From NCBI GenBank assembly GCA_024280215.1, contig JAJRQO010000007.1, positions 120,758 through 184,757 of the forward strand: 64,000 nt of DNA, read 5' to 3'. Origin of the DNA: Candidatus Zixiibacteriota bacterium. Its GTDB lineage: Bacteria; Zixibacteria; MSB-5A5; GN15; FEB-12. Position 1 is the first letter of the stretch. Every line of letters begins with the position of its first letter. The notes under the pieces were generated by a model. It had not been told where the DNA came from and searched no databases. It worked only from the letters and a program-made list of their open reading frames with translations. A program made the position numbers and the translations under genes. This document shows, one piece after another, positions 32,578 through 59,586 of the stretch.

Positions 32578-32584
32578 AAAATTT

Positions 32585-32907
32585 GGTAGCGGGGAGTCGG
32601 TTTGAAGCCTTTGGCTCTTTCAATTGTTGATAAATTCAGATATTGAATAAATCAGGCTTAGCCTGTGGTAGCGGGGGTCGGTTTGAAGCCTTTGGCTCTT
32701 TCAATTGTTGATAAATTCAGATATTGAATAAATCAGGCTTAGCCTGTGGTAGCGGGGAGTCGGTTTCGTATCCTGCCATTTGTGTCCAGCAATAAAAAAA
32801 GCCAACTTTTCAGTTGGCTTGAAATTTGGTAGCGGGGAGTCGGTTTCGTATCCTGCCATTTGTGTCCAGCAATAAAAAAAGCCAACTTTTCAGTTGGCTT
32901 GAAATTT
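32585..32907. repeat. Four ~80-82 bp tandem units, each starting with the tRNA-fMet 3'-terminal sequence GGTAGCGGGG
   Basis: Units at 32585, 32667 (type A) and 32748, 32828 (type B); type B carries a minus-strand terminator AAAAAAAGCCAACTTTTCAGTTGGCTT. Confidence 0.9.
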
Positions 32908-32952
32908 GGTAGCGGGGAGAGGATTTGAACCTCTGACCTTCGGGTTATGAGC
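32902..32952. repeat. left attachment repeat (3' half of tRNA-fMet)
   Basis: aaatttggtagcggggagaggatttgaacctctgaccttcgggttatgagc; 49/51 identical to 59560-59610. Confidence 0.92.
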
Positions 32953-34423: not shown

Positions 34424-36526
34424 ATGAAAAAACTTAATAAATTTGACATTGAATTTTTAATTGAAGCACTCAAGAGTAGGAAAGAAATTCCTCTTGAGTA
34501 TAAATATGCTCTTTTCCCAACGAAGCAAAAAGAGTATGAGCTAGTTTATGCTGGGAAAATGCGTAAAGAGGATATTCTAGCAGATAATGAAGAAGCAAAA
34601 GCAGTACCGTTACAGGTAGAAAAAATATTTAATGGCAAAAAATATCCTTTATTTACAAAGAATTGGCATAACTTTTTAGTCTTTGGTGATAATTTGCAAA
34701 TATTAAAAACTTTTAATAAAAATAGTGATCCTTTGATTAAAAATAAAATAAAAGGAAAAGTAAAACTAATTTACATTGATCCACCATTTGCGACAGAAAG
34801 TGATTTTAAAAGTAAAGATGGTGCGAAAGCATATACTGATAAAACAAAAGGATCAGAATTTATTGAATTTTTAAGAAAAAGATTGATTGTTGCTCGTGAA
34901 ATTCTTGCTGATGATGGAACTATTTTTGTTCACTTGGACACTAAAAAAGGACATTATATTAAGTTGGTTTTAGATGAAATATTTGGAGAATCCAATTTTC
35001 TGAATGAAGTTATTTGGCAAAAGATAAACAATCCCAAAAAACAGTCAAGTTCGTTTGGAAAAGTTCATGATATCATCTTTGTATATTCTAAATCTGGCTC
35101 AAATACTTTTAATCAAATTTTTACTGAATATGATGAAAAATATGTAACTAACACGTACAAGTATATTGAAGAAAAAACAGAAAGAAAATTTGGCTCATTT
35201 GATTTAACTCAGAAAGGTAGTGGTCCAATTAGATATTTTGGCAAAAAATATGGAGATTTAAAACCGCCAAAAGGTAAACATTGGATATGGGGTCAAGAAA
35301 GAATTGACGAAGCTCTTAAAAAGAATCTAATTATATTCACAAAAAATGGAACACCAAGAGTAAAAAAATATTTAGACGAAATGGATGGCAAAGTCATTTC
35401 AGACCTGTGGACAGATATTTTAAACATTCAAGCAAATTCAAATGAAAACATTGACTATCCTACACAGAAACCTGAAAAACTAATTGAAAGAATTATAAAA
35501 GCATCCACAAATGAAGGTGATCTTATTTTGGATTTCTTTTGTGGCTCTGGTTCTACTCTTGCAGTTGCAGAAAAACTTGGAAGACGTTGGGTTGGTTGTG
35601 ATATTGGGAAATTAGCAATTTATACTACGCAAAAACGACTATTGAATATTGATCAAAGCAAAGATATTGAAAATCCTAAAATAAAATATGGTAAGCCTGC
35701 CAAATCTTTTGGAGTTGTTACTTCAGGGCTTTATAATCTTAGTAAAATATTTGCTCTTAAAAAAGATGAATATGTTGATTTTGTAAAACGACTATTTGAA
35801 ATTGATGAGAGAACTAAGAAGAAGATTAGTGGTGTTGAAATTGACGGAAAGAAAAGAGAATTCTATGTGAAAATATTTCCATATTGGGATTTAAAAAATG
35901 TAAGTGTGGATGAAAAGTATTTAAAAGAACTACATAAGAGTATTGGAAATAAAATTGATAGCAGGTTTTATATTATAGCACCTGCTAATAACGTAGATTT
36001 TATTAGTGATTATCATCAAATAGGCAATGTCAGATATTATTTTTTGAAAGTACCATATCAAATAATCAAAGAATTACACAAAGTACAATTTAAAAAATTA
36101 AGACAACCTCAAAGCAAAAAAAATATAAATGATCTTGATGAAGCAATAGGTTTTCATTTTATTCGTCAACCAGAAGTGAAATCAGAAATTAAAAAGATAA
36201 AAGATAAGATTGTTTTACGAATTAAAAAATTTGAATCTGCTTATAGTAAAGATGAGACTGGGGAAAAGCTTGTTAATTTTGGTAGTTTAGCAATGTTACT
36301 TGTAGATTTGAATTATAACGGTGAAGCTTTTCTGATGACTGATTATTATTTTGCTGATGAATTGTTGGATATAAACAAAGATAAGACTGATGATGAAATT
36401 AAAGCGGAACTAAAAAAGAAGCGAGTAATTAAGAAAGAGTTTATTAAAAAAGATTGTGGTAAGAAGATTATGGCTATTTATGTTGATATATATGGAAATG
36501 AATTTAAAGAAATTTTTAAAATATAG
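34424..36526 (+). CDS. Type III restriction-modification DNA methyltransferase (Mod)
   Basis: LIYIDPPFATESDF (DPPY-type) and DLILDFFCGSGSTLAVAEKLGRRWVGCDIGKLA. Confidence 0.9.
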   Translation: MKKLNKFDIEFLIEALKSRKEIPLEYKYALFPTKQKEYELVYAGKMRKEDILADNEEAKAVPLQVEKIFNGKKYPLFTKNWHNFLVFGDNLQILKTFNKNSDPLIKNKIKGKVKLIYIDPPFATESDFKSKDGAKAYTDKTKGSEFIEFLRKRLIVAREILADDGTIFVHLDTKKGHYIKLVLDEIFGESNFLNEVIWQKINNPKKQSSSFGKVHDIIFVYSKSGSNTFNQIFTEYDEKYVTNTYKYIEEKTERKFGSFDLTQKGSGPIRYFGKKYGDLKPPKGKHWIWGQERIDEALKKNLIIFTKNGTPRVKKYLDEMDGKVISDLWTDILNIQANSNENIDYPTQKPEKLIERIIKASTNEGDLILDFFCGSGSTLAVAEKLGRRWVGCDIGKLAIYTTQKRLLNIDQSKDIENPKIKYGKPAKSFGVVTSGLYNLSKIFALKKDEYVDFVKRLFEIDERTKKKISGVEIDGKKREFYVKIFPYWDLKNVSVDEKYLKELHKSIGNKIDSRFYIIAPANNVDFISDYHQIGNVRYYFLKVPYQIIKELHKVQFKKLRQPQSKKNINDLDEAIGFHFIRQPEVKSEIKKIKDKIVLRIKKFESAYSKDETGEKLVNFGSLAMLLVDLNYNGEAFLMTDYYFADELLDINKDKTDDEIKAELKKKRVIKKEFIKKDCGKKIMAIYVDIYGNEFKEIFKI

Positions 36527-36528
36527 AT

Positions 36529-39060
36529 ATGGCAGATGTAAAAAAATATAAAACTAAGGATTTAGTTTTAGAAGTTAAGAAAAATTACAATCCTCAAAAA
36601 CTCAATTTAAAACAATGGATAAATTTTCTAGATGTTCTTTGCGGAGATAGAGAATATCAAAAAGAAGCAATTAGTAGTGCTATTGTTTATCTTGCGTCTG
36701 GTGAGTATAAATCTATTGAAAATTTAATAGAGGAGAACTATAGTAATAATCCTGAATTACGAAAAAGATATAAAGATATTTATGAATATCAAAAAAGCTT
36801 GCCACTACCACATAAATTATCTGCAGTTATTGATTTGGCAACAGGTACGGGGAAAAGTTATCTAATTTATGGAATTGCACAAATTGCACTAGGGATTGGA
36901 TTAGTCGATAAGGTTTTAGTGCTTTGTCCCTCATTAACTATTGAGTCTGGTTTAAAAGAAAAATTTGAAAACCTTTCTGGAGATGACAAAATCAAAGCAA
37001 CATTACCAGATACAGCAGTTTTTAAAAATCCAAGAATAATTGATGCTAATATAACAATTAAAAATGGTGATATTTGTGTTGAAAATATACATGCTGTATA
37101 TAAAAAAACTGGCTCGTCAATTAATGATAGTTTAAAAGATAACGGAGAAAGGGTTTTAGTTCTTAATGATGAAATTCATCATACCTATAATTCTATTGGT
37201 GATAAAGATATTAAAAAATGGAGAGAATTTCTACTTAGTCCAGACTTCAATTTCAAATATATGTTAGGGTTTACTGGTACGGCATATTCCAATAATGAAT
37301 ATTTTAATGATGTTATCTATCGCTATTCAATTCGTCAAGCAGTTGATGAAAAAGTTATAAAGTCAGTTGATTATGTCGTGAAAGATGAAGCTGTAGGAAA
37401 AGATGAGAAGTTTCAAGAAATTTATGATAATCATAATGAATTTGTGAACAAATATCACTTAATAAAACCTTTAACAATTTTGATTACAAAAGATATTTCA
37501 AAAGCAAAATCACTCCAAGAGGATTTGATAGATTTTTTACAAAAAAGAGAAAAAATATCACGTGAAGCTGTCGAAAATAAGGTCTTAATTGTAACATCAC
37601 ATAAAGACCATAAAAAAAATCTTGTTGAATTAAAAAATGTTGATGATAAAGATAATTCTGTTGAATGGATTGTTTCTGTCTCTATGCTTACGGAGGGATG
37701 GGATGTCAAAAATGTTTTTCAAATAGTTCCTTGGGAGGACAGAGCTTTTAATTCGAAGTTACTAATCGCTCAAGTCTTAGGTAGAGGTTTACGTATTCCA
37801 GAGGAATACAAATCTCCACAACCTAAAGTTCGAGTTTTTAATCATGATGCTTGGAGTCGTAACATTAAAGGACTTGTGAATGAAATATTGGAAATAGAAG
37901 TTCGCTTAACAAGTGAAATATTAACTAAGGGGGAACGTTCTAAATATCATTTTGATTTATATCATATAAACTATGATAAAAAAGAAAAAGCTGTTAAAGC
38001 AAAAAAAAATACCGAGATATTTGACTATTCAAAAGGATATATAAATCTAGTTGCTCAAGTTGAAAAAATTGAGAGAGAGGCTGAATATGAAGATTTGGGT
38101 GGTATTATTAAACCAAAAACTACGATTATACACAAAGAAGTATTAAGTATAGACGAAGTTGTGGATAAAATAGTAGAAACATTCAGAACTAGAGATTTCG
38201 AAGCAAAAATTAGATTTCCAAAAGGTGAATATAAAAAAGAAAAATTACCACCAAAGGATGAAATAAGAGAAATTGTCGAAGAATCCATGAAACGTCGAGG
38301 AATTAAAAGCGGAGTACTAACAGAAGATAATGCACTTAGAATATTCAAAGCTTTTCAGACTTTATTTAGGGCAAAAGGATCAACTATTGTTTTGGATCGC
38401 ATTGTAAATAAACCAATCAAATTGAGCACTAAATCACTTGAAAAAGAAAGTGCAGGAGTTAGTGCTGTTAGACATGGTACAACTGTTTTTCATACTGAAA
38501 ATTATAAAGATGAGTGTAATGAAGAACTCCCTGATGTTTTAAAAGATATTATCGAAGATCAAAATTTGCCAAGAAGTGCCAGCAAGGAAGTTAATCATTA
38601 TTGTTTTAAAACACCTGTGAATATTGTTTTAACAAAGCAAGAGCCAGAAAGAAAATTTGTAGAAATACTTATAAATCAAAAACTACATGAAAAAATTGAT
38701 GCTTGGATAAAATCAAGAGATGTCGGTTTTTATAGTATTGAATACTCTTGGAGAAAAGGCGAACATCCAACACAGAGTGGTTTTAACCCCGATTTTTTCA
38801 TTAAAGTTGGAAATAATATTGTTGTTGTAGAAATTAAGTCCGATGGTGATGACTCACCTGAAAATAAAGCTAAGTATAAATGGGCAAAAAAACACTTTGA
38901 AGCATTAAATAGTGAATTAAAAAAATCAAAGATAAAACAAAAATATTACTTCCATTTTTTAAGTCCTCAAAGTTATACAGAGTTCTCTGAATATCTTGCT
39001 GATGGCAGATTATTTAAAGGTAAATTTGAAAGTACACTTGAAGAATTATTAGAAAATTGA
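36529..39060 (+). CDS. Type III restriction endonuclease (Res; DEAD helicase + PD-(D/E)XK)
   Basis: DLATGTGKSYLIYGIA, NDEIHH, VLGRGLRIP; C-terminal NPDFFIKVGNNIVVVEIKSD nuclease motif; 2 bp after mod. Confidence 0.9.
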   Translation: MADVKKYKTKDLVLEVKKNYNPQKLNLKQWINFLDVLCGDREYQKEAISSAIVYLASGEYKSIENLIEENYSNNPELRKRYKDIYEYQKSLPLPHKLSAVIDLATGTGKSYLIYGIAQIALGIGLVDKVLVLCPSLTIESGLKEKFENLSGDDKIKATLPDTAVFKNPRIIDANITIKNGDICVENIHAVYKKTGSSINDSLKDNGERVLVLNDEIHHTYNSIGDKDIKKWREFLLSPDFNFKYMLGFTGTAYSNNEYFNDVIYRYSIRQAVDEKVIKSVDYVVKDEAVGKDEKFQEIYDNHNEFVNKYHLIKPLTILITKDISKAKSLQEDLIDFLQKREKISREAVENKVLIVTSHKDHKKNLVELKNVDDKDNSVEWIVSVSMLTEGWDVKNVFQIVPWEDRAFNSKLLIAQVLGRGLRIPEEYKSPQPKVRVFNHDAWSRNIKGLVNEILEIEVRLTSEILTKGERSKYHFDLYHINYDKKEKAVKAKKNTEIFDYSKGYINLVAQVEKIEREAEYEDLGGIIKPKTTIIHKEVLSIDEVVDKIVETFRTRDFEAKIRFPKGEYKKEKLPPKDEIREIVEESMKRRGIKSGVLTEDNALRIFKAFQTLFRAKGSTIVLDRIVNKPIKLSTKSLEKESAGVSAVRHGTTVFHTENYKDECNEELPDVLKDIIEDQNLPRSASKEVNHYCFKTPVNIVLTKQEPERKFVEILINQKLHEKIDAWIKSRDVGFYSIEYSWRKGEHPTQSGFNPDFFIKVGNNIVVVEIKSDGDDSPENKAKYKWAKKHFEALNSELKKSKIKQKYYFHFLSPQSYTEFSEYLADGRLFKGKFESTLEELLEN

Positions 39061-42425: not shown

Positions 42426-42836
42426 ATGAGCAATCCAAGAGCCTTTATAAGTTTTGATTTTGATCATGATGAGACAGAGAGAGTTCTTTTTATTGGTCAA
42501 TCAAAACTCTCAAAAAGCCCTTTTAACATTGAAGATTGGTCTTCAAAGTCATCTTTACCACAAAGTGAGTGGGAGAAATTGATTGAAGAAAAAATTAATA
42601 AGTGCAATATGGTTATTGTATTAGTAGGTAAAACCATGTCTTCAGCTACTGGAGTGGCAAAAGAAATTTCTTTTGCCAAGGCTAATGACGTTCCTGTATT
42701 TGGTGTATATGTTGATGGAGCCAATACTGTAAGCAATTTACCTAGTGGACTTCAACGCAATAGAGTTATTAGTTGGGGATGGACTGCGATTGCTTCTGCC
42801 ATTGATCAAATGATGAAAGAAGGAAAAAATAAATAA
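42426..42836 (+). CDS. TIR-like domain protein (Thoeris ThsB-like, MTH538/DUF1863 type)
   Basis: RAFISFDFDHDE...NIEDWSSKSSLPQSEWEKLIEEKINKCNMVIVLVGKTMSSATGVAKEISFA. Confidence 0.85.
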   Translation: MSNPRAFISFDFDHDETERVLFIGQSKLSKSPFNIEDWSSKSSLPQSEWEKLIEEKINKCNMVIVLVGKTMSSATGVAKEISFAKANDVPVFGVYVDGANTVSNLPSGLQRNRVISWGWTAIASAIDQMMKEGKNK

Positions 42837-42857
42837 TATGAGGATGGCTATAATTTT

Positions 42858-43847
42858 ATGAGAAAAGCACTTATAATTGGTATTGATAAATATCCTAATA
42901 ATTTACTTAGTGGTTGCGAAAACGATGCAACGTCTATAGCTAATATTCTCGAAAAAAATGGTGATGATTCACCAAATTTTGATGTAAAATTAATAACTAG
43001 TGATAACACAAATGTAACTAGTGAGTTAATTTATTCTGCCTTGGAAAAACTTTTTAAAGATGAGGCAGAAACAGTTCTTTTTTATTTTGCTGGGCACGGT
43101 ATAATAAATGAGTCTACGAATGCTGGTTATATAGTTAGTCAAGATGGTAAGAAAGGAAGTTGGGGTGTAAGTCTTTCTGAAATATTAGAAATGGCAAATG
43201 GAGCACATCCACATATTAAATCTACGGTTATTATTTTAGATAGTTGCAATTCTGGATACGCAGGAGAAGTTGCTGGATTAAAAAATAAGGGAATTTCAAT
43301 CATTGGAACAGGTGTAACTATTCTAACAGCATGTCATCGTGAAGGGACAGCAGATGAAGATAATGGTCAAGGTCTTTTTACTACACTTTTATTAGATGGT
43401 CTCAGTGGCTCATCAGCTGATATATGTGGACGTATTACGCCCGCCTCAGTATATTCGCATATTGATCAAACCCTTGGTTCGTGGGAACAACGACCAATAT
43501 ATAAAGCCAACGTACAGACTTTCGTTACACTCCGTGAGATAACTCCCAAAGTTCCACTTGATATTTTACGTAGGTTGCCTACCTACTTTAAAAATCCTAC
43601 AGATCATTTTTCATTAGACCCATCTTTCGAGCCAGACAGAGAAAATATTCCAGAAAATCTTAGACATATTCCTGTAAATGCGGACAATAGCCGTGTTTTT
43701 AAGGAACTTCAATTATGCAATAGGTATGGGTTAATAATTCCTGTAGATGCTGAGCATATGTATTATGCAGCTATTAACTCAAAAGCATGTAAATTGACCG
43801 CACTTGGTTCACATTTTCGCAAGCTTGCTGAAATGGGTAGAATTTAA
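42858..43847 (+). CDS. caspase-like peptidase (C14 family)
   Basis: KALIIGIDKYPNNLLSGCENDATSIANIL, catalytic His FYFAGHG, catalytic Cys IILDSCNSGYAGE. Confidence 0.9.
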   Translation: MRKALIIGIDKYPNNLLSGCENDATSIANILEKNGDDSPNFDVKLITSDNTNVTSELIYSALEKLFKDEAETVLFYFAGHGIINESTNAGYIVSQDGKKGSWGVSLSEILEMANGAHPHIKSTVIILDSCNSGYAGEVAGLKNKGISIIGTGVTILTACHREGTADEDNGQGLFTTLLLDGLSGSSADICGRITPASVYSHIDQTLGSWEQRPIYKANVQTFVTLREITPKVPLDILRRLPTYFKNPTDHFSLDPSFEPDRENIPENLRHIPVNADNSRVFKELQLCNRYGLIIPVDAEHMYYAAINSKACKLTALGSHFRKLAEMGRI

Positions 43848-48526: not shown

Positions 48527-48742
48527 ATGTCCAAAGAAACAGAAAAAAGAGATGAGTTGGCAGGTGAGATTGCGGTAGCGTTTAGAGAGGAAGAACAAAT
48601 AAAGCTGTATCAACATGTTTGTAGCCAACATGATTATACAACAATAAAACAAGCTTTTGATGACACAATGAAAGTGCCGTCAGATAAAATTAAAAAATCA
48701 AGATCAGCTTTATTCTTTTACCTACTTAAAAAAAATGTGTAA
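48527..48742 (+). CDS. hypothetical protein (71 aa)
   Basis: Overlaps the downstream RuvC-like ORF by 8 nt; operon-like. Confidence 0.5.
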   Translation: MSKETEKRDELAGEIAVAFREEEQIKLYQHVCSQHDYTTIKQAFDDTMKVPSDKIKKSRSALFFYLLKKNV

Positions 48743-49283
48743 AACAAAAATAAAAATAATTTCAATTGACCCAGGTACTAAGCATATGGGTTTTGCCTCG
48801 TTTGAGGGAATAGAGTTAATTGACTACGGAGTTAAAACAATCAAACAAGGTTCAGTTGAAATTATCCTTGAACACATAGAGGAAATCATCAATCGAATGA
48901 TAGATGAGAAAAAACCAGATTGTATAGTTTTAGAAAAGAACGCCTTTTCTCAAAACAAAAGTAATCTTCGTTTGGCTATGGTTGTTGCCAAAATCAGGAA
49001 AATAGCCAAAAAGAAAAGTCTATTAGTTTATGAGTACGACCCTCGAACTATTCGTAAAGAAATTTGTAATGATGGTAATGCGAGTAAAAAAAGGGTAGCT
49101 CAAACTTTGATAATATTCTTTCCAAATTTGAAAGTGTATCTAAAGTCAAATAAAGACTGGGTTTTAAAGTATCAGATGAATATGTTTGATGCGGTGGCAG
49201 TAGGGATGACATTTTTAAGAATAAATGTAAGTTCAACATTACCAATACAAAAATGGCAAAAAGTAAAACAAAAAAAGAAATAA
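48735..49283 (+). CDS. RuvC-like Holliday-junction resolvase/nuclease
   Basis: IISIDPGTKHMGFA, CIVLEKNAFSQNKSN, NMFDAVAVGM acidic RuvC-fold motifs. Confidence 0.8.
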   Translation: MCKTKIKIISIDPGTKHMGFASFEGIELIDYGVKTIKQGSVEIILEHIEEIINRMIDEKKPDCIVLEKNAFSQNKSNLRLAMVVAKIRKIAKKKSLLVYEYDPRTIRKEICNDGNASKKRVAQTLIIFFPNLKVYLKSNKDWVLKYQMNMFDAVAVGMTFLRINVSSTLPIQKWQKVKQKKK

Positions 49284-49757
49284 AAAAGCACCAATCTCAA
49301 GATTGGAACAACCACTTATGTCGTGGTTGTAAAAGATTAAAAACGCCCCCTCGTCTTGTCGGTTTTACTCCATAACTTTCCCCGAATAAAATTTAAAAGA
49401 AGCATTTTCTGCTTCTTTTAAAAAGTAGAATTGATTTACTATCATTTCTACTTTCAAAACAGCTTTTAGGCTGTATTTGCTGGGTAAAGTTATGTCGCTC
49501 ACCGCCCGACTATTATCGTTTCCCTCAACCTCTGCCTACTCTGCTTTTGACCATATATACAAATCAAAAACAGAGCAGGTTCCCAGAGGTCTCGGCTTCA
49601 TAAGAAATAACAAGTTATTTCTTACTCGGGTCTGCTCACTTCCAAATTCTTATGGTGGAGCAGACCGAAACGATAATAGTCGGACGGCTCGAATCGCCAT
49701 CCACAAAATATGAAATAACTATTTTGTGGGGCGAGTTCGGCTTCCGACGAGGGGGCT
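49281..49757 (-). ncRNA. large multi-domain structured ncRNA (unassigned class)
   Basis: At least 10 helices: closing stem 49345-49355/49746-49756 (11 bp), 49506-49522/49667-49683 (17 bp), 49371-49382/49482-49494, hairpin 49392-49422 (13 bp), 49528-49550/49564-49590 and others. Two A-C mismatches on plus become G-U on minus; minus-strand terminator CCAATC-TTGA-GATTGG-TGCTTTTTT at 49281-49306. Confidence 0.8.
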
Positions 49758-49775
49758 TAAAAGGAGTCCAACAAG

Positions 49776-50780
49776 TTGGATAAAATCATTATTGTATACA
49801 TGAAGAAAAACAAACTAATACTTAAAGAGAGAGATTACATAATATTGAAACATGTATATGATTACAGGTTTTTAAGTGGTGAACTCCTTTGGCACCTTTT
49901 AAAATCTGATAATCATACAGATTCAATCATTTACTCAACAGGAAAAGACGGAAGGAACCGTCCTAAAAAATATGGATTCAAGCAACAAACTCTATCAAAA
50001 CGTTTAAAGCAATTATACGATGCGAAGTATGTTGAACGTCATTATATGACAGATCAGCCTTATGGTAGGGGATATGGCTCTCCAAGAGCTATCTATGGAC
50101 TTGGGAAGCAAAGCTCTAAGCTCTTACAAGAGATACATCAAATACCCCAATATAGCACTCGAAAGATAGTTGAGAGCAACAAAGTTAAATCACCCTATCT
50201 AAGACATGCTTTAGAATTAGCAACATTTAGAATTGTACTGGAATTAGCTTGTCAACAGTCAAAAGGAAAATTCTCATTATTAAATTGGGAACAAGGTCAG
50301 TCGATAAAGGACTATGTAAATGTGATTGATAAAAAAGGAGAAAAACGAAAAATCATAATTTATGCTGATGCGTTCTTTGGAATAAGAATCAGAGGTAGGA
50401 AAAATAAGCATTTCTTCTTAGAAATTGATAGAGGAACCGAACCAATAGTATCAAGTTCAATTAGAAGCAACATCAGGAGTAAATTGACTGGTTATCAATA
50501 TTATCTGAAATCTAAGAAAATACACAAAAAGTATGAATTTATGGTTAACGGATTTCAGGTACTTTTTGTAACAACTGGAAAGGTTGAAACCGATAATACT
50601 CTTTCAGGTCGGATAGCAAATATTTTTAATGAATTAGTTTTAAATAAAATACTATACTCATCAGAGGCTCTATTTTTATTAACAACACCTCAATCAATAT
50701 TTTTATCAAATTCAGAATCTATTATTTCAAATATTTGGATTTCTCCAAAATCTCATAATTTACTTAGTTTAATTGAATAG
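49776..50780 (+). CDS. replication-relaxation family protein
   Basis: LKERDYIILKHVYDYRFLSGELLWHLL...QTLSKRLKQLYDAKYVERHYM...PRAIYGLGKQSSKLL. Confidence 0.75.
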   Translation: MDKIIIVYMKKNKLILKERDYIILKHVYDYRFLSGELLWHLLKSDNHTDSIIYSTGKDGRNRPKKYGFKQQTLSKRLKQLYDAKYVERHYMTDQPYGRGYGSPRAIYGLGKQSSKLLQEIHQIPQYSTRKIVESNKVKSPYLRHALELATFRIVLELACQQSKGKFSLLNWEQGQSIKDYVNVIDKKGEKRKIIIYADAFFGIRIRGRKNKHFFLEIDRGTEPIVSSSIRSNIRSKLTGYQYYLKSKKIHKKYEFMVNGFQVLFVTTGKVETDNTLSGRIANIFNELVLNKILYSSEALFLLTTPQSIFLSNSESIISNIWISPKSHNLLSLIE

Positions 50781-52833: not shown

Positions 52834-53070
52834 ATGAAACAAGTAGTAGTCATCACCGCAGGTACAGGTAATCACACCGACCTAACTATCGAAGCTGGTA
52901 CAACAGCATCTGATATTTTAAAACAATTAAATCTAACAGGGTATGTGTTGAGTAAAGATGCAGGACAACATGTCTTTGGCGAAAGCGAAAATGTGTATAC
53001 CAATGTTGACGACGGAGAAAAGCTTCATGTCGCATCAAAGACAGATGTTGGAAATGATATTAACCATTAA
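52834..53070 (+). CDS. ubiquitin-like beta-grasp protein (Ubl)
   Basis: 78 aa; VVVITAGTGNHTDLTIEAGTTASDILKQLNLTGYVLSKD...DDGEKLHVASKTDVGNDINH; followed by JAB and E1. Confidence 0.7.
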   Translation: MKQVVVITAGTGNHTDLTIEAGTTASDILKQLNLTGYVLSKDAGQHVFGESENVYTNVDDGEKLHVASKTDVGNDINH

Positions 53071-53086
53071 ATAAGGAGTAGGTGAA

Positions 53087-53578
53087 ATGGGAATGTTCTT
53101 GTTAAAATTATTATCGTGGACGCTTGAAGCACTTGTTGTAATTCTTTCGATTTTGTTGAAGATTTTTACATTTTTCAAAAATGTTGTTAAGGAAAAAGTG
53201 TCTTCTTCAAAGAAGAATGTTGTTAAAAAAGATTATGATAAGACTTTAAAAAGCCAAAAGACTGTTAAACGAAATATTGCTCCTTTGTGGAAAGAGAGAA
53301 AATGGAATAAAGCAGGTAATACATATAATGGATTCTATCGTACTCAGTATGGTTCTTATAAAGGAAAAATCATTGAACGTTATCAAGGTTTAATCCAGTT
53401 CTATATTTTCAATCCACCTAAATGTTTAGCTCAACATTCCCATTTTGCCTGTTTTATCCCAAAAGAAGGAAAAAAATATGAAATACATTTTTCAACAATG
53501 GCAAAAACGGCTGATGAGGGTATTTTGGCAATCGAGAAAATACTTACAGAAGCTCACCAGTTACTACAAAAAAGATAA
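53087..53578 (+). CDS. membrane-anchored protein in the E2 position of the Ubl operon
   Basis: N-terminal TM segment; C-terminal NGFYRTQYGSYKGKIIERYQGLIQFYIFNPPKCLAQHSHFACF; E2 homology not proven. Confidence 0.5.
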   Translation: MGMFLLKLLSWTLEALVVILSILLKIFTFFKNVVKEKVSSSKKNVVKKDYDKTLKSQKTVKRNIAPLWKERKWNKAGNTYNGFYRTQYGSYKGKIIERYQGLIQFYIFNPPKCLAQHSHFACFIPKEGKKYEIHFSTMAKTADEGILAIEKILTEAHQLLQKR

Positions 53579-53588
53579 GGAAGACCAA

Positions 53589-54275
53589 ATGATTAAAATA
53601 TCAAACAATGCGTTAGTGCGATTACGATCACATTGTGATTTAATAACTGAAAAAAGTCGGAAAGAATTTGTTAAATTAAAAGAAGCAATTATTGATAATT
53701 ATGATATTGAGCATGCTGATAGCATATTTACTCGGTTATGTGATTTTAGTCAAACAAAACTTGTTCTATCAGAAATTTCCAATGAAATATCATCTTCAAC
53801 TATTGAGATTCCAGAATTTATGATGAGTTCAGAGATTCTCTATAAAGCATTTCATAAATTGAATTCTATAAAAACTGAATCAATATTGTATGCAGTTGGA
53901 AATAATTATAATAATTCATACTCAATTGAACGTCTGATAGAATTAGAACTTGATCAATCAGAATATGGATACGCAAAGGCAAATGATATATTTAGTTCAA
54001 AAGCTCTTATTGATCTTGAGGAGTATGGTACTTTATTAACTTGTTATTTCCACGCTCATCCAGGTCGGGGAATAAATTCAAATAATCCTTCTGATATTGA
54101 CTATTCATATCAGAAAAGATTGGAAAGCGGTAAATATAAAACAATCGGAGGAATCTTTTCAAGAGATGGGTATCTTCGGTTTTTCTCAGACAAGCTCCAA
54201 TATAAAATCAGTATATCTGGAAAGGGAGTTGAGTATGTTTCAAGAAATGTTTATAAACTCACAGAAATTTCATAA
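53589..54275 (+). CDS. JAB/MPN (JAMM) isopeptidase-like protein
   Basis: TCYFHAHPGRGINSNNPSDIDYSYQKRL JAMM-like motif; ATG at 53589 within ORF 53445-54275. Confidence 0.75.
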   Translation: MIKISNNALVRLRSHCDLITEKSRKEFVKLKEAIIDNYDIEHADSIFTRLCDFSQTKLVLSEISNEISSSTIEIPEFMMSSEILYKAFHKLNSIKTESILYAVGNNYNNSYSIERLIELELDQSEYGYAKANDIFSSKALIDLEEYGTLLTCYFHAHPGRGINSNNPSDIDYSYQKRLESGKYKTIGGIFSRDGYLRFFSDKLQYKISISGKGVEYVSRNVYKLTEIS

Positions 54276-55056
54276 GTCTAAATGTAAAGACTTAAGAAAT
54301 TATAATCGCCTGAACGATAGGATTTTTGAACGACATCTTGGAATCTCAGGTTTTGATCCAAACCAATATTCGAATTTAAAAATTTTGATGGTTGGTGCGG
54401 GTGGATTAAATGGGGAAATTGGTGAAGGGTTAGTGCGAAAGGGGATTGGAGAGATAACGTTCATTGATGGTGATACTGTCTCTTTATCAAATCTAAATCG
54501 CCAACAGTTTTATAAAAAAGATATAGGAAAAAATAAAGCTGTTCAAATAGTAAAAAATCTAAGTAAAGTTGGATTTATGGGGACAAACCTAAAAGGGCAT
54601 CCTCTCTTTTTTCAAGAATACTTGGAAAAAGAGAATTGTAACCCTGATTTAGTAGTGTGTGGTGTTGATAATGATGAAGCCCGAATTTGTGCATCAAAGT
54701 ATGGTCTCAAACATAATATCCCAGTAATCTTTACTGCTGTATCTCGTGATGCCAATCAAGGATATGTATTTATTCAGGAAACAGAATGTGCTTGTTTTGG
54801 ATGTATGTTTCCAGACGCTATTAATAATCAAGTAACTCCATGTCCTAATATTCCTGCTATGAAAGATATTTTGAAAGTAGTTTCAGGAATGGTTTTGTTT
54901 GGAATTGATTCGGTATTAATGGATCGAAAACGAACATGGAATTATCGTATGATTTACTTGGCTGGTTTTATGTCAGATTCTAAATCTCTAAAGAAACAAA
55001 ATCCGACGTGCTTATTATGTTCAAAATTTGAAGGTGTTTCAAATGCGATCAAATAG
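54235..55056 (+). CDS. ThiF/E1-like adenylating enzyme
   Basis: LMVGAGGLNGEIGEGLVRKGIGEITFIDGDTVSLSNLNRQQFYKKDIGKNKA; CFGC...CLLC zinc ligands; ATG at 54235 overlapping the JAB gene. Confidence 0.92.
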   Translation: MFQEMFINSQKFHKSKCKDLRNYNRLNDRIFERHLGISGFDPNQYSNLKILMVGAGGLNGEIGEGLVRKGIGEITFIDGDTVSLSNLNRQQFYKKDIGKNKAVQIVKNLSKVGFMGTNLKGHPLFFQEYLEKENCNPDLVVCGVDNDEARICASKYGLKHNIPVIFTAVSRDANQGYVFIQETECACFGCMFPDAINNQVTPCPNIPAMKDILKVVSGMVLFGIDSVLMDRKRTWNYRMIYLAGFMSDSKSLKKQNPTCLLCSKFEGVSNAIK

Positions 55057-56563
55057 AAAAGATAAATCTAAACTTGAATATTCATCATTCTTGGAAGATA
55101 TATTTTTTAAACCTATTTCAGGGCTAACTAATTACTTTCTATCAAATTCTGGCAAAGGACAGATTCCTCATGACTCCATAAGTCTTGGGGAATCTCCTAA
55201 TTTTTTTAATCAAAAGAAAATTGAAGAAATTTATCTGAGTTTACAACAATTAGGTAAGCATGCTTACATTCTTGGACAATCAGGTTCTGGTAAGACATAT
55301 TTAATTTTATTAATGCTTATGTCATTCGTAAGACTAGAGTCAGGATTTGCTGTTGTAGATATACATGGCGATTTATCAAGAATGATTTTTAATTATATTG
55401 CTTCTGAAGCTGTAACGCCTGAACAAGAAGCAATTATTTCAAAAAAATTAGTTCTTATCGAACCTTTTGATAAAGACTATGCCCCTGCCTTTAATCCCTT
55501 GAGTTGTTCAAACTCAAATAATTCTTACTCGGAAGCATTTGACATGTTAGGTGTTTTTAAAAAGATATGGAAAGATGTTTCATGGGGAGCAAGGATGGAA
55601 GAATTACTTAGAAATTTGTTAATCACTTTGTCATTATCAAAAAGGTCTTTGGTTGATGCTCCTTTGTTTTTAACAGATGAAAATTTCAGAACTAATATAG
55701 TTGATAATTTACAAGACTACGAAATTAAGCATTATTGGACTAATAGATTTGGAGCATTATCTGATAGAATGAAACCAGTTTATATAGAACCTGTTCTTAA
55801 CAAACTAACTGTTTTTACTTCTGATCCATATATCAGACACATCCTTGCTCAAAAAGAATCTACTTTGAATTTCCGTAAACTGATGGATGAAAAGAAATGG
55901 GTAATAATCAATATTAGCAAAGGTGTGCTTAGCGAAAACTCTCATCTTTTAGGTTCATTATTTATCTCAAAGATTAAATCAGAGGCTCTTTCAAGAGCTG
56001 ATATTCCAGAATCAAGAAGAGTTCCCTTTCATTTAGTTGTTGATGAATTCCAAAACTTTATGGGATATAATTTTGAAGAAATTCTTTCAGAAGCTCGAAA
56101 GTATAAACTCTCATTAATTTTAGCACATCAGAACTTAGCCCAAATAGATAAATCAATGCGTGAATCAATCTTTGGAAATGTGGCGACTACATTATTTTTC
56201 AGATTGGGTCATAATGATATTCGAGAGATTTCAAATGTCTTCAAAGAAAGTGATAAATCTTTACTTAAACAATCATTATCAACTTTAGGAGTGGGAGAAG
56301 TTATACATCGTGTTTCAGATGGAAGTTTTAAAAAGATAAATATACATCATATCAAATCTACAGCACCAAATAAGCATATTGTTAATAGATTGCGTAAAAA
56401 TTGCCATGACAAATTTTACAAGAAGAGAACTATTATCGATAAGGAATTAAGGTTATCAAGAAGTAATAGTCATAATGCTATTATAGTTTCCACAGTAAAA
56501 TCAAAAGTTAAAGTAAAAACTCAAAAAAATGTAAATGGTGATATTAAAGAGGGAATCCTTTAG
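55028..56563 (+). CDS. conjugative coupling/HerA-VirB4-like DNA-translocase ATPase
   Basis: YILGQSGSGKTYLILLMLMSFV, GFAVVDIHGDLSRM, FHLVVDEFQNFMG. Confidence 0.85.
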   Translation: MKVFQMRSNRKDKSKLEYSSFLEDIFFKPISGLTNYFLSNSGKGQIPHDSISLGESPNFFNQKKIEEIYLSLQQLGKHAYILGQSGSGKTYLILLMLMSFVRLESGFAVVDIHGDLSRMIFNYIASEAVTPEQEAIISKKLVLIEPFDKDYAPAFNPLSCSNSNNSYSEAFDMLGVFKKIWKDVSWGARMEELLRNLLITLSLSKRSLVDAPLFLTDENFRTNIVDNLQDYEIKHYWTNRFGALSDRMKPVYIEPVLNKLTVFTSDPYIRHILAQKESTLNFRKLMDEKKWVIINISKGVLSENSHLLGSLFISKIKSEALSRADIPESRRVPFHLVVDEFQNFMGYNFEEILSEARKYKLSLILAHQNLAQIDKSMRESIFGNVATTLFFRLGHNDIREISNVFKESDKSLLKQSLSTLGVGEVIHRVSDGSFKKINIHHIKSTAPNKHIVNRLRKNCHDKFYKKRTIIDKELRLSRSNSHNAIIVSTVKSKVKVKTQKNVNGDIKEGIL

Positions 56564-57450
56564 TGTGTAATAAATCTGATAAACGCCAATCGAGACACAA
56601 GAGGTCAAAAGTGCCTTCTGTTCTAATAATCCAAAAAAGAGATATTGAGATTATTAAAGCAGTTTTTCAGTATCGTTATCTAACTCGGTCTCAAATACAA
56701 CTTTTGTTTGATATGAAGTCTGTAACAAGAGTCAATATTCGACTTCGAAAACTTTATGATAATCGGTTTTTGGATAGATATTATCAACCTACTTTATTAG
56801 GAAGCTCGGAAGCAATCTATACCATTGGGTCATGTTCTGTTCATTTAGTAGCTGAAAGTTTCGGAATTGATATAGACGAGGTAAAACGTCGCCGTAAAAT
56901 AGATAATGTAGCTAAAAACAAATTTATAAATCATAACCTCATAGTTAATGATTTCAGAATCAATCTAATGGTAGATATTAAGAATCACCCAAGTTTTAAA
57001 TTTATCAAGTGGCTTGATTCCAGAGATTGTGAATTCAAGTTCAAATATAATCATACTAATAAAGAAGTTATGACAAGTATCAAGCCTGATGGATATTTTG
57101 AATTTATTTATCAGAATTGTTCGTACTCATTTTTTGTTGAGATTGATCTATCAACAAGCAATCACTCAAAACTAAAATATAAGTTTAAAAATTATCAGGT
57201 TTTTAAAAACTTGAACTTATTTAAGCAAGAATTTAAAAAAGAAGTATTCTATGTTCTTGTTGTTACAAAAAACAACTCTCGTACAGAAAATCTGCATAGA
57301 ATATCAAATGAACTCAAAACAGATATGTTCTGGTTTTCGACAATAGACAATACAGCCCAAAATATTCTATTTGGCAATATTTGGAAACAATCAGGACGTG
57401 TAGAATCAAGAGCATTTTTCAAACAATCTAAAGTTAGGATTGTTAAATGA
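56563..57450 (+). CDS. replication-relaxation family protein (second copy)
   Basis: IIQKRDIEIIKAVFQYRYLTRSQIQLLFDMKSVTRVNIRLRKLYDNRFLDRYYQP; SFFVEIDLSTSNHSKLKYKFKNYQ. Confidence 0.75.
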   Translation: MCNKSDKRQSRHKRSKVPSVLIIQKRDIEIIKAVFQYRYLTRSQIQLLFDMKSVTRVNIRLRKLYDNRFLDRYYQPTLLGSSEAIYTIGSCSVHLVAESFGIDIDEVKRRRKIDNVAKNKFINHNLIVNDFRINLMVDIKNHPSFKFIKWLDSRDCEFKFKYNHTNKEVMTSIKPDGYFEFIYQNCSYSFFVEIDLSTSNHSKLKYKFKNYQVFKNLNLFKQEFKKEVFYVLVVTKNNSRTENLHRISNELKTDMFWFSTIDNTAQNILFGNIWKQSGRVESRAFFKQSKVRIVK

Positions 57451-58067: not shown

Positions 58068-58253
58068 ATGAATAATTTACTCACAATTGAAGAACTTGCA
58101 AAGATTCTTAAAGTACCCAAATCTTGGATTTATGATCGGACAAGAAAAGACGGTCCCGAAAGAATACCACATTACAAAATAGGTAAATATGTAAGATTTG
58201 TGGAACAAGAGGTTATTGAATATTTAAGAATAAGGTGTATGGACAGTTCGTAA
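58068..58253 (+). CDS. excisionase-like helix-turn-helix protein
   Basis: LLTIEELAKILKVPKSWIYDRTRKDGPERIPHYKIGKYVRFVEQEVIEYL (HTH_17). Confidence 0.85.
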   Translation: MNNLLTIEELAKILKVPKSWIYDRTRKDGPERIPHYKIGKYVRFVEQEVIEYLRIRCMDSS

Positions 58254-58407
58254 TAGTCTATGTGATTGACAATGTTTGATCAGATTAATACATTACAGTA
58301 TGCTCTCGACCGTTTACCACAATCAAAAAATCAATCCGTTAGCTCTAAAATTATCGGATATGGTTTTACTCAATCAATTTGTCATACTGAAAGGAGGTGA
58401 ATACAAA

Positions 58408-59559
58408 TTGGCAAAAGGAAGCGTAGTACAACGCTCAGGAACTTGGTATGCGGTTTATCGGGATGGAGGAACCCAGAAATGGGAACGAGTAGGTAATAGT
58501 AAAAGAACTGCTGAGAAAGTATTAGCAAAAAGGATTAACCAGATTAATAACGGAACTTTTCAAGAGTTTGAGAAAATTCTCTTTGAGGAGTTTTCAGCAA
58601 AATGGTTATCTGACTATGCTAAAATCTCTGTGAAAATATCTACTTACAACAGCTATGAAACCATTGTGAGGCTTCACTTGAATCCTCAATTTGGTAAACA
58701 ATATTTACATCGGGTATCGACAGCAGATATACAGAAATTTGTATCAGAAAAGATTACAAAAGAAAATCTGAAACCGAAATCTGTTGTGAATTTTTTGGTT
58801 CCTCTTAAAGAAATGTTCAAGCATGCGGTTATATGGGGATTTATAAAACGTGATCCCTCACTATATGTAAAACGACCTCGCATAGAATTGGAAGAAATGG
58901 ATTTCCTTATACCTAAAGAGATTCGACTTTTTCTTAATCATGTTAAGTCTAATTATTATTCGCTGTTTTTGACAGCAGTAATGACTGGTATGAGACGAGG
59001 TGAGATTTTAGCTTTAAAGTGGGGTGATATTGATTGGAACTCCAATCAAATATCAGTTAAGCGTTCTATTTATAAAGGAGAATTTGTCAATCCTAAATCG
59101 AAGAATTCCATTCGACGGATTGTTATAACTCCTTTACTTCGTCAGGCACTTGAACAACACCGTTTGATTGGAAGAACATCTGAACTCGGTTTAGTGTTTT
59201 CCAACGAAAATGGATTACCTCTTAATCCCGATAACCTAATCAAGCGGGAATTTCATCCCGCATTAGACAGAGCAGGCTTACGCAGGATTCGCTTCCATGA
59301 TCTTCGACATTCTTATGCGTCATTATTAATTTCTCAAGGAGAGAACATTAAATTTATCCAATCACAACTTGGTCATTCGTCAGCAAAAACGACTCTTGAC
59401 CGTTATGGACATTTAATGCCAAACCTTGAAAATGATGCCGCTCGGAGATTAGATAAAACAGTTTTTGGAAGTTTTGTTAGAAAACTGTTAGAAAATCCGA
59501 AATCTGAAGGAAATCCCACTCAAAAAGAAATCCCCGAAGTTATTGAACTTCAGGGACTT

Positions 59560-59586
<27 letters not shown>
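58408..59586 (+). CDS. int: tyrosine integrase of the element
   Basis: TGMRRGEILALKWGDID, FHDLRHSYASLL, LGHSSAKTTLDRYGHLM; RBS aaggaggtg and TTG at 58408; stop lies inside the tRNA 3' end. Confidence 0.93.

Follow-up and report, generated by a model that had tools for sequence, protein, structure and literature searches.

A folded element of about 500 bases in a mobile element of an uncultured bacterium, most likely an RNA

What is the intricately folded stretch of about 500 bases that separates a RuvC-like gene from a Replic_Relax gene in a mobile element of an uncultured bacterium? The window, by which we mean the whole stretch of 64,000 nucleotides from a Candidatus Zixiibacteriota genome that was analysed, had initially been annotated as encoding at this place a candidate new large structured RNA transcribed against all neighbouring genes. 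Judged from its sequence and that of its relatives, the element is most likely an RNA, and we consider it moderately probable that it represents a new structured-RNA family of about 0.5 kb, encoded on the minus strand and acting with the Replic_Relax mobilization module. The earlier observation is real and new, and its object is a further case of a large, structured nucleic acid carried by mobile elements. The fold at its centre holds and proves to be conserved, covarying and un-catalogued, whereas the likeness to named RNAs is borne out in part, and the neighbour that counts is not RuvC. To our knowledge, only a handful of large bacterial RNAs with intricate folds have been described, several of them without a known function.

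The fold and its conservation

All the helices named in the initial annotation, comprising the closing stem, those of domains a, b and c, the hairpin at 49308–49330 and the terminator, are present where it had placed them. The core of the element (49345–49756, minus strand), as delimited by the fold, its homologues and covariation, has an 11-bp closing stem (49345–49355/49746–49756) round three domains that are likewise read on the minus strand. Domain a (49367–49498) is an outer stem enclosing three hairpins, including a perfect 13-bp stem (49392–49422), and the arm sequence of its middle hairpin (AAAGUAGAA...UUCUACUUU) is kept in most copies. Domain b (49502–49687) is a long stem of 17 bp enclosing a four-way junction, while domain c (49690–49739) is a nested hairpin in which several pairs are changed on both sides in a comparison of seven copies. 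Beyond the core on the minus strand lie the 3' hairpin T1 (49308–49330; 8 bp with a 7-nt loop), which recurs in most homologues, and the 3' hairpin T2 with its U-run (49281–49306; CCAATC-TTGA-GATTGG-TGC-TTTTTT), resembling the 3' end of a transcript at an intrinsic terminator. On the opposite side, where the closing stem gives way to the Replic_Relax gene, a short 5' hairpin, TCCAACTTGTTGGA (about 49768–49781, in a segment drawn as 49768–49783, minus strand), occupies the same position in most copies. The minus strand of 49275–49770 folds to −221.8 kcal/mol, compared with a mean of −119.8 (sd 6.0) for shuffled sequences (z −17; none of 100 shuffles equals it). For the plus strand the value is −195.7 kcal/mol (z −16), also far below its shuffles, as the wealth of inverted repeats in the region would lead one to expect.

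Conservation of this fold does not depend on the window alone. Every complete copy (11/11) folds far below its own shuffles, with z between −10.9 and −21.5, and the three-domain layout is, by eye, common to their folds. When seven copies are compared, 41 of the 127 predicted pairs differ on both sides yet still pair in one copy or more. For domain b, 12 copies were aligned to its covariance model, R1; both partners vary in 37 of 58 pairs, 94.5% of cells pair, and the covariation score is 0.440 versus 0.155 in shuffles, with none of 500 shuffles reaching any of five measures, a margin that is large even though an alignment fitted to the model is flattered by it. When the partner is slid by one to three columns, pairing falls from this value to 40–52%. 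A model-free check on compensatory change comes from swapping the arms of the outer stem of domain a between copies: arms from the same copy pair at a mean of −23.7 kcal/mol, those from different copies at −12.6, and the own partner is better in 13 of 13 cases. Helices that persist while both of their arms undergo compensatory change, the general mark of a structured RNA, are thus present among the copies, in agreement with the initial annotation of a structured element. An E-loop in the domain-b junction, considered by eye, was dropped because divergent copies fail to keep it.

The fold is also absent from the catalogue of known RNAs. At gathering score, Rfam 15 finds a single tRNA in the window, away from the element, and no family in the 13 related loci, which bears out the proposed novelty, and a permissive search of the region (E up to 5) returns sub-threshold matches only, such as mir families at 16–23 bits against thresholds of 74–108. 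That the element is not a tmRNA, RNase P or group I/II intron also stands, with no match to a family model or by ARAGORN. The open-access literature, in the part covered, holds no description of it, which is weak evidence.

Host element, copies and neighbouring genes

The mobile home of the element is well defined. The host element (32902–59610, about 26.7 kb) lies in tRNA-Met between 51-nt direct repeats that are 96% identical and include part of that tRNA gene. It carries an integrase (58276–59586) at its right end, an HTH_17 excisionase-like gene (58068–58253), a TraG/D-like coupling protein (55028–56563) and, besides the Replic_Relax gene next to the folded element, a second one (56563–57450). 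These features agree with the mobile setting proposed at the outset, and the host, an integrative element, looks mobilizable. At its left boundary (32579–32952), the end sequence of tRNA-Met recurs in additional incomplete copies with 80–81 nt repeats between them, possibly traces of earlier insertions. The host element also contains a DNA methylase (PF01555, E 9.6e-50) and a type III restriction subunit (PF04851, E 4.9e-18) at 34424–39060. At 42426–43847, a TIR-domain protein (ThsB_TIR, E 4.3e-09) adjoins a caspase-like protein (Peptidase_C14, E 3.9e-17), and the two genes are likely a defence pair that the host carries. At 52834–55056, a ThiF/E1-like protein (PF00899, E 9.9e-29; PADLOC E1-E2, E 1.7e-16) lies downstream of three small ORFs, one of which has no Pfam match and is ubiquitin-like by eye; together they possibly form a bacterial ubiquitin-like conjugation operon.

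Beyond the window's own genome, copies of the element were reached by two routes, at an earlier stage through RuvC relatives in related genomes and then with R1, which finds copies without using the neighbour gene. They number 13, of which 11 are complete (the window, L011, L012, L013, L014, L015, L022, L028 (= L052), L053 (= L020), L054 and L056) and two partial (L009 and L026), and the mobile elements that carry them belong to nine Zixiibacteriota genomes and a single Patescibacteria MAG; the R1 search finds the element in 9 of 134 Zixiibacteriota genomes. In the window's own genome, a DNA search revealed a second, divergent and partly assembled copy where contig C20 ends, beside a RuvC paralogue. 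A second long Replic_Relax gene opens contig C21 of the same genome, and since the first letters of this contig form a 5' hairpin resembling those of other copies, the second copy was probably broken by assembly inside the element. Several contigs break off within the element or at its border, namely these two (G000:C20 end, C21 start), G002:C27 (start) and G134:C3 (start); perhaps the strong fold hinders sequencing or assembly.

The Patescibacteria-labelled MAG has one copy, on JAQULM010000003.1. The tetranucleotide usage of this contig correlates at 0.65–0.75 with another contig of its own genome and at 0.24–0.47 with Zixiibacteriota DNA, and because it is nearer to the former, a gross binning error looks unlikely. 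This is the one credible match among 337 Patescibacteria genomes sampled; a weak model match in the same group (L060, 28.4 bits) turned out to be an unrelated GC-rich palindrome. Samples of Aerophobota (17 genomes), Chloroflexota (301) and Bacteroidota (299), groups that offer no positive control, gave no match. Searches of plasmids and phages brought up no DNA similar to the element and no protein similar to the long Replic_Relax protein. In viral contigs, searches for RuvC and Replic_Relax gave no relatives, and three DNA patterns found there either nothing or matches without the fold; L057, inspected at that stage, was discarded as a copy.

Of the two neighbours between which the initial annotation had placed the element, both are confirmed by Pfam in the window, but the long-type Replic_Relax gene rather than RuvC is the constant one. 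The RuvC-like resolvase gene (48735–49283, plus strand; PF02075, E 4.6e-12) is a usual neighbour; as a constant partner it is ruled out by five RuvC relatives without the element (L016–L019, L023) and by L053, in which a short Replic_Relax gene separates RuvC from the element. Residues D12, E67 and D152 of the RuvC-like protein are invariant across eight aligned relatives and stand at the places where the active-site acids of RuvC would be expected. In most relatives (L009, L011–L015, L022, L026, L028, L054 and L056), a short ORF whose translation ends in a CYYCRKRRTS-like sequence lies between RuvC and the element and probably encodes a zinc-ribbon peptide; by eye, it is not seen in the window.

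The long-type Replic_Relax gene (49776–50780, plus strand; PF13814, E 6.6e-16), whose true start may be an ATG near 49800, encodes a protein that scores 59.4 bits against PF13814 (cut-off 25.3) and so falls within the profile of the MobC superfamily. Its residues D198, E216 and D218 are conserved, a search by sequence found no relative with a solved structure, and the protein can be predicted to act as a relaxase. Among the long Replic_Relax loci that were readable in a protein search, 11 of 11 carry the element head-to-head with the gene on the opposite strand, and two further contigs with a long-type gene begin exactly at the 5' hairpin of the element. It is present in none of eight short-type loci. 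These loci indicate that the element and a single clade of relaxase-like Replic_Relax proteins are strictly passed on together. As both the RuvC and the Replic_Relax gene lie on the plus strand, a minus-strand element does oppose its flanking genes, as had been claimed.

Five loci with a short-type Replic_Relax gene (L016, L017, L019, L020 and L023) contain a second compact structured element of 112–116 nt (GCTCCCG...CGGGAGC), which overlaps the 3' end of that gene on the gene strand. Its branched fold is similar in the five loci and it has no Rfam match; it may be another new RNA family.

Strand of the element, and RNA versus DNA

The minus-strand assignment was originally based on the helix 49535–49550/49564–49579, whose only departures from Watson-Crick pairing are indeed two positions that read G-U on the minus strand. 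Across copies, single wobbles inside helices, counted in those helices found on both strands, are G-U on the minus strand in 18 cases and A-C in 6 (two-sided binomial p 0.023, with cells of related copies not independent). The minus fold is the more stable one in 9 of 11 complete copies, and its unpaired bases are A-rich (525 of 1378). Past the core, 7 of 13 copies have a terminator-like hairpin with a U-run on the minus strand, and 1 of 13 has one on the gene (plus) strand; in 6 of 13 there is no recognisable terminator. R1 scores 166 bits on the minus and 48 bits on the plus strand of the window, values that are not independent evidence because R1 was built from the minus strand. Most copies have a hexamer resembling xxTAAT ahead of the 5' hairpin, which is weak evidence for a promoter, and a scan with consensus promoters gave no minus-strand site and weak matches on the plus strand only.

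As a control, the RNase P sequences of nine of these genomes were taken through identical steps. The share of G-U among pairs in predicted folds is about 4% in the element versus 11% in RNase P, and on shared pairs the ratio of G-U to A-C is 12:5 in the element (7 copies), or 13:20 in a poorer, sequence-based and imperfect full-length alignment of 11 copies, versus 34:7 in RNase P. The 18:6 wobble count, terminators and stability lean to the minus strand, with a weaker strand signal than that of RNase P.

The scarcity of G-U pairs keeps alive a serious rival to the RNA, namely that the element acts as folded single-stranded DNA, being a single-strand origin, a priming site or part of a transfer origin that is used when the DNA is unwound or transferred by the relaxase. 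Such a site would have a fixed orientation to the relaxase gene and nearly pure Watson-Crick pairing, and the element does always lie beside a relaxase-like gene in fixed orientation. PF13814 is moreover listed as the MobC relaxase superfamily (PMC5357655). Set against this, the element is more than twice the size of sso1 of ICEBs1 and far more branched. Plasmid single-strand origins feature a CS-6-type TAGCG[AT] loop motif, which is found in 0 of 11 copies on either strand, although not all origin types carry CS-6. The terminator-like 3' ends on one strand are likewise unexpected of DNA, as is the excess of G-U over A-C, though G-T pairs are tolerated in DNA too. On balance, we regard single-stranded DNA as possible but doubtful, and RNA as the better reading of these sequences; were the DNA reading nevertheless to apply, the element would be an unusually large and elaborate origin-like site.

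We consider it very unlikely that the element works instead in the plus-strand message, as a large cis element between the RuvC and relaxase genes through which translation of the relaxase would be controlled or insulated. The flanking genes all have plus-strand orientation, and the gap holds no clear separate promoter for Replic_Relax, the plus-strand matches there being weak, but the plus fold is the weaker one in nine of the 11 complete copies and both the wobble balance and the direction of the terminator-like ends point the opposite way. Scarcely credible is a double-stranded palindrome cut as a cruciform by the neighbouring resolvase, for which one could cite the four-way junctions in the fold, the adjoining RuvC-like gene in most copies and its invariant acidic residues, given that RuvC relatives occur without the element, that a gene intervenes in L053 and that strand asymmetry would not be expected.

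A possible role and comparison with known systems

For the preferred reading, a minus-strand RNA, we infer a model of transcription, ends and role. Transcription would begin in the narrow space ahead of the relaxase-like gene, or slightly within the start of this gene, run away from it and end at the hairpin and U-run near 49281. Once folded, the RNA would have its three domains in a closed core, followed by the two 3' hairpins, and might serve as a partner or regulator of the mobilization module, for example by being bound to the relaxase or by controlling when the relaxase is made. A role in the relaxase module seems likeliest because the element is strictly inherited with one Replic_Relax clade. 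Because a simple antisense regulator of the relaxase gene would need no such elaborate fold, we favour a bound or structural role over mere antisense regulation. The bolder proposal of a new class of large RNAs that is an obligate part of the mobilization module, for example binding or directing the relaxase during element transfer, we rate as unlikely. Strict linkage to one relaxase-like clade in mobile elements is in itself a strong functional clue, by which participation in DNA transfer can be put directly to the test. If an RNA does work with the relaxase, DNA transfer would gain an RNA component that is undescribed in the literature compared here.

Among DNA sites, the closest parallel is sso1 of ICEBs1, which lies immediately downstream of the relaxase gene, measures about 200 bp and is orientation-specific (PMC4595007). 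Like sso1, the element is a folded region of fixed orientation beside a relaxase-like gene in an integrative element (PMC4595007); sso1 has three stem-loops, while the element has three branched domains in about 500 nt. As in streptococcal IMEs of class 8, the host element combines a Replic_Relax gene with a VirD4/TraG-type coupling protein; unlike the element, the streptococcal MobC modules are presented, in the part of the source that is accessible, with no mention of a structured RNA beside the relaxase (PMC5357655).

Among RNAs, the initial annotation had likened the element to GOLLD, ROOL and ARRPOF. Size, complexity and a mobile setting support this comparison, but no further resemblance emerged. 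ARRPOF and raiA-motif RNAs are large structured bacterial RNAs; the element differs from both in its lack of an Rfam match and in its gene neighbourhood. GOLLD, ROOL and OLE, taken as included in Rfam 15, match neither the window nor the 13 loci at gathering score. GOLLD and ROOL occur in prophages and phages (PMC12286853). The element shares with GOLLD, ROOL and OLE its size class and multi-domain complexity, and with GOLLD and ROOL the mobile setting; while phage tRNA islands are the home of this comparison group, the element adjoins a relaxase-like gene in integrative elements.
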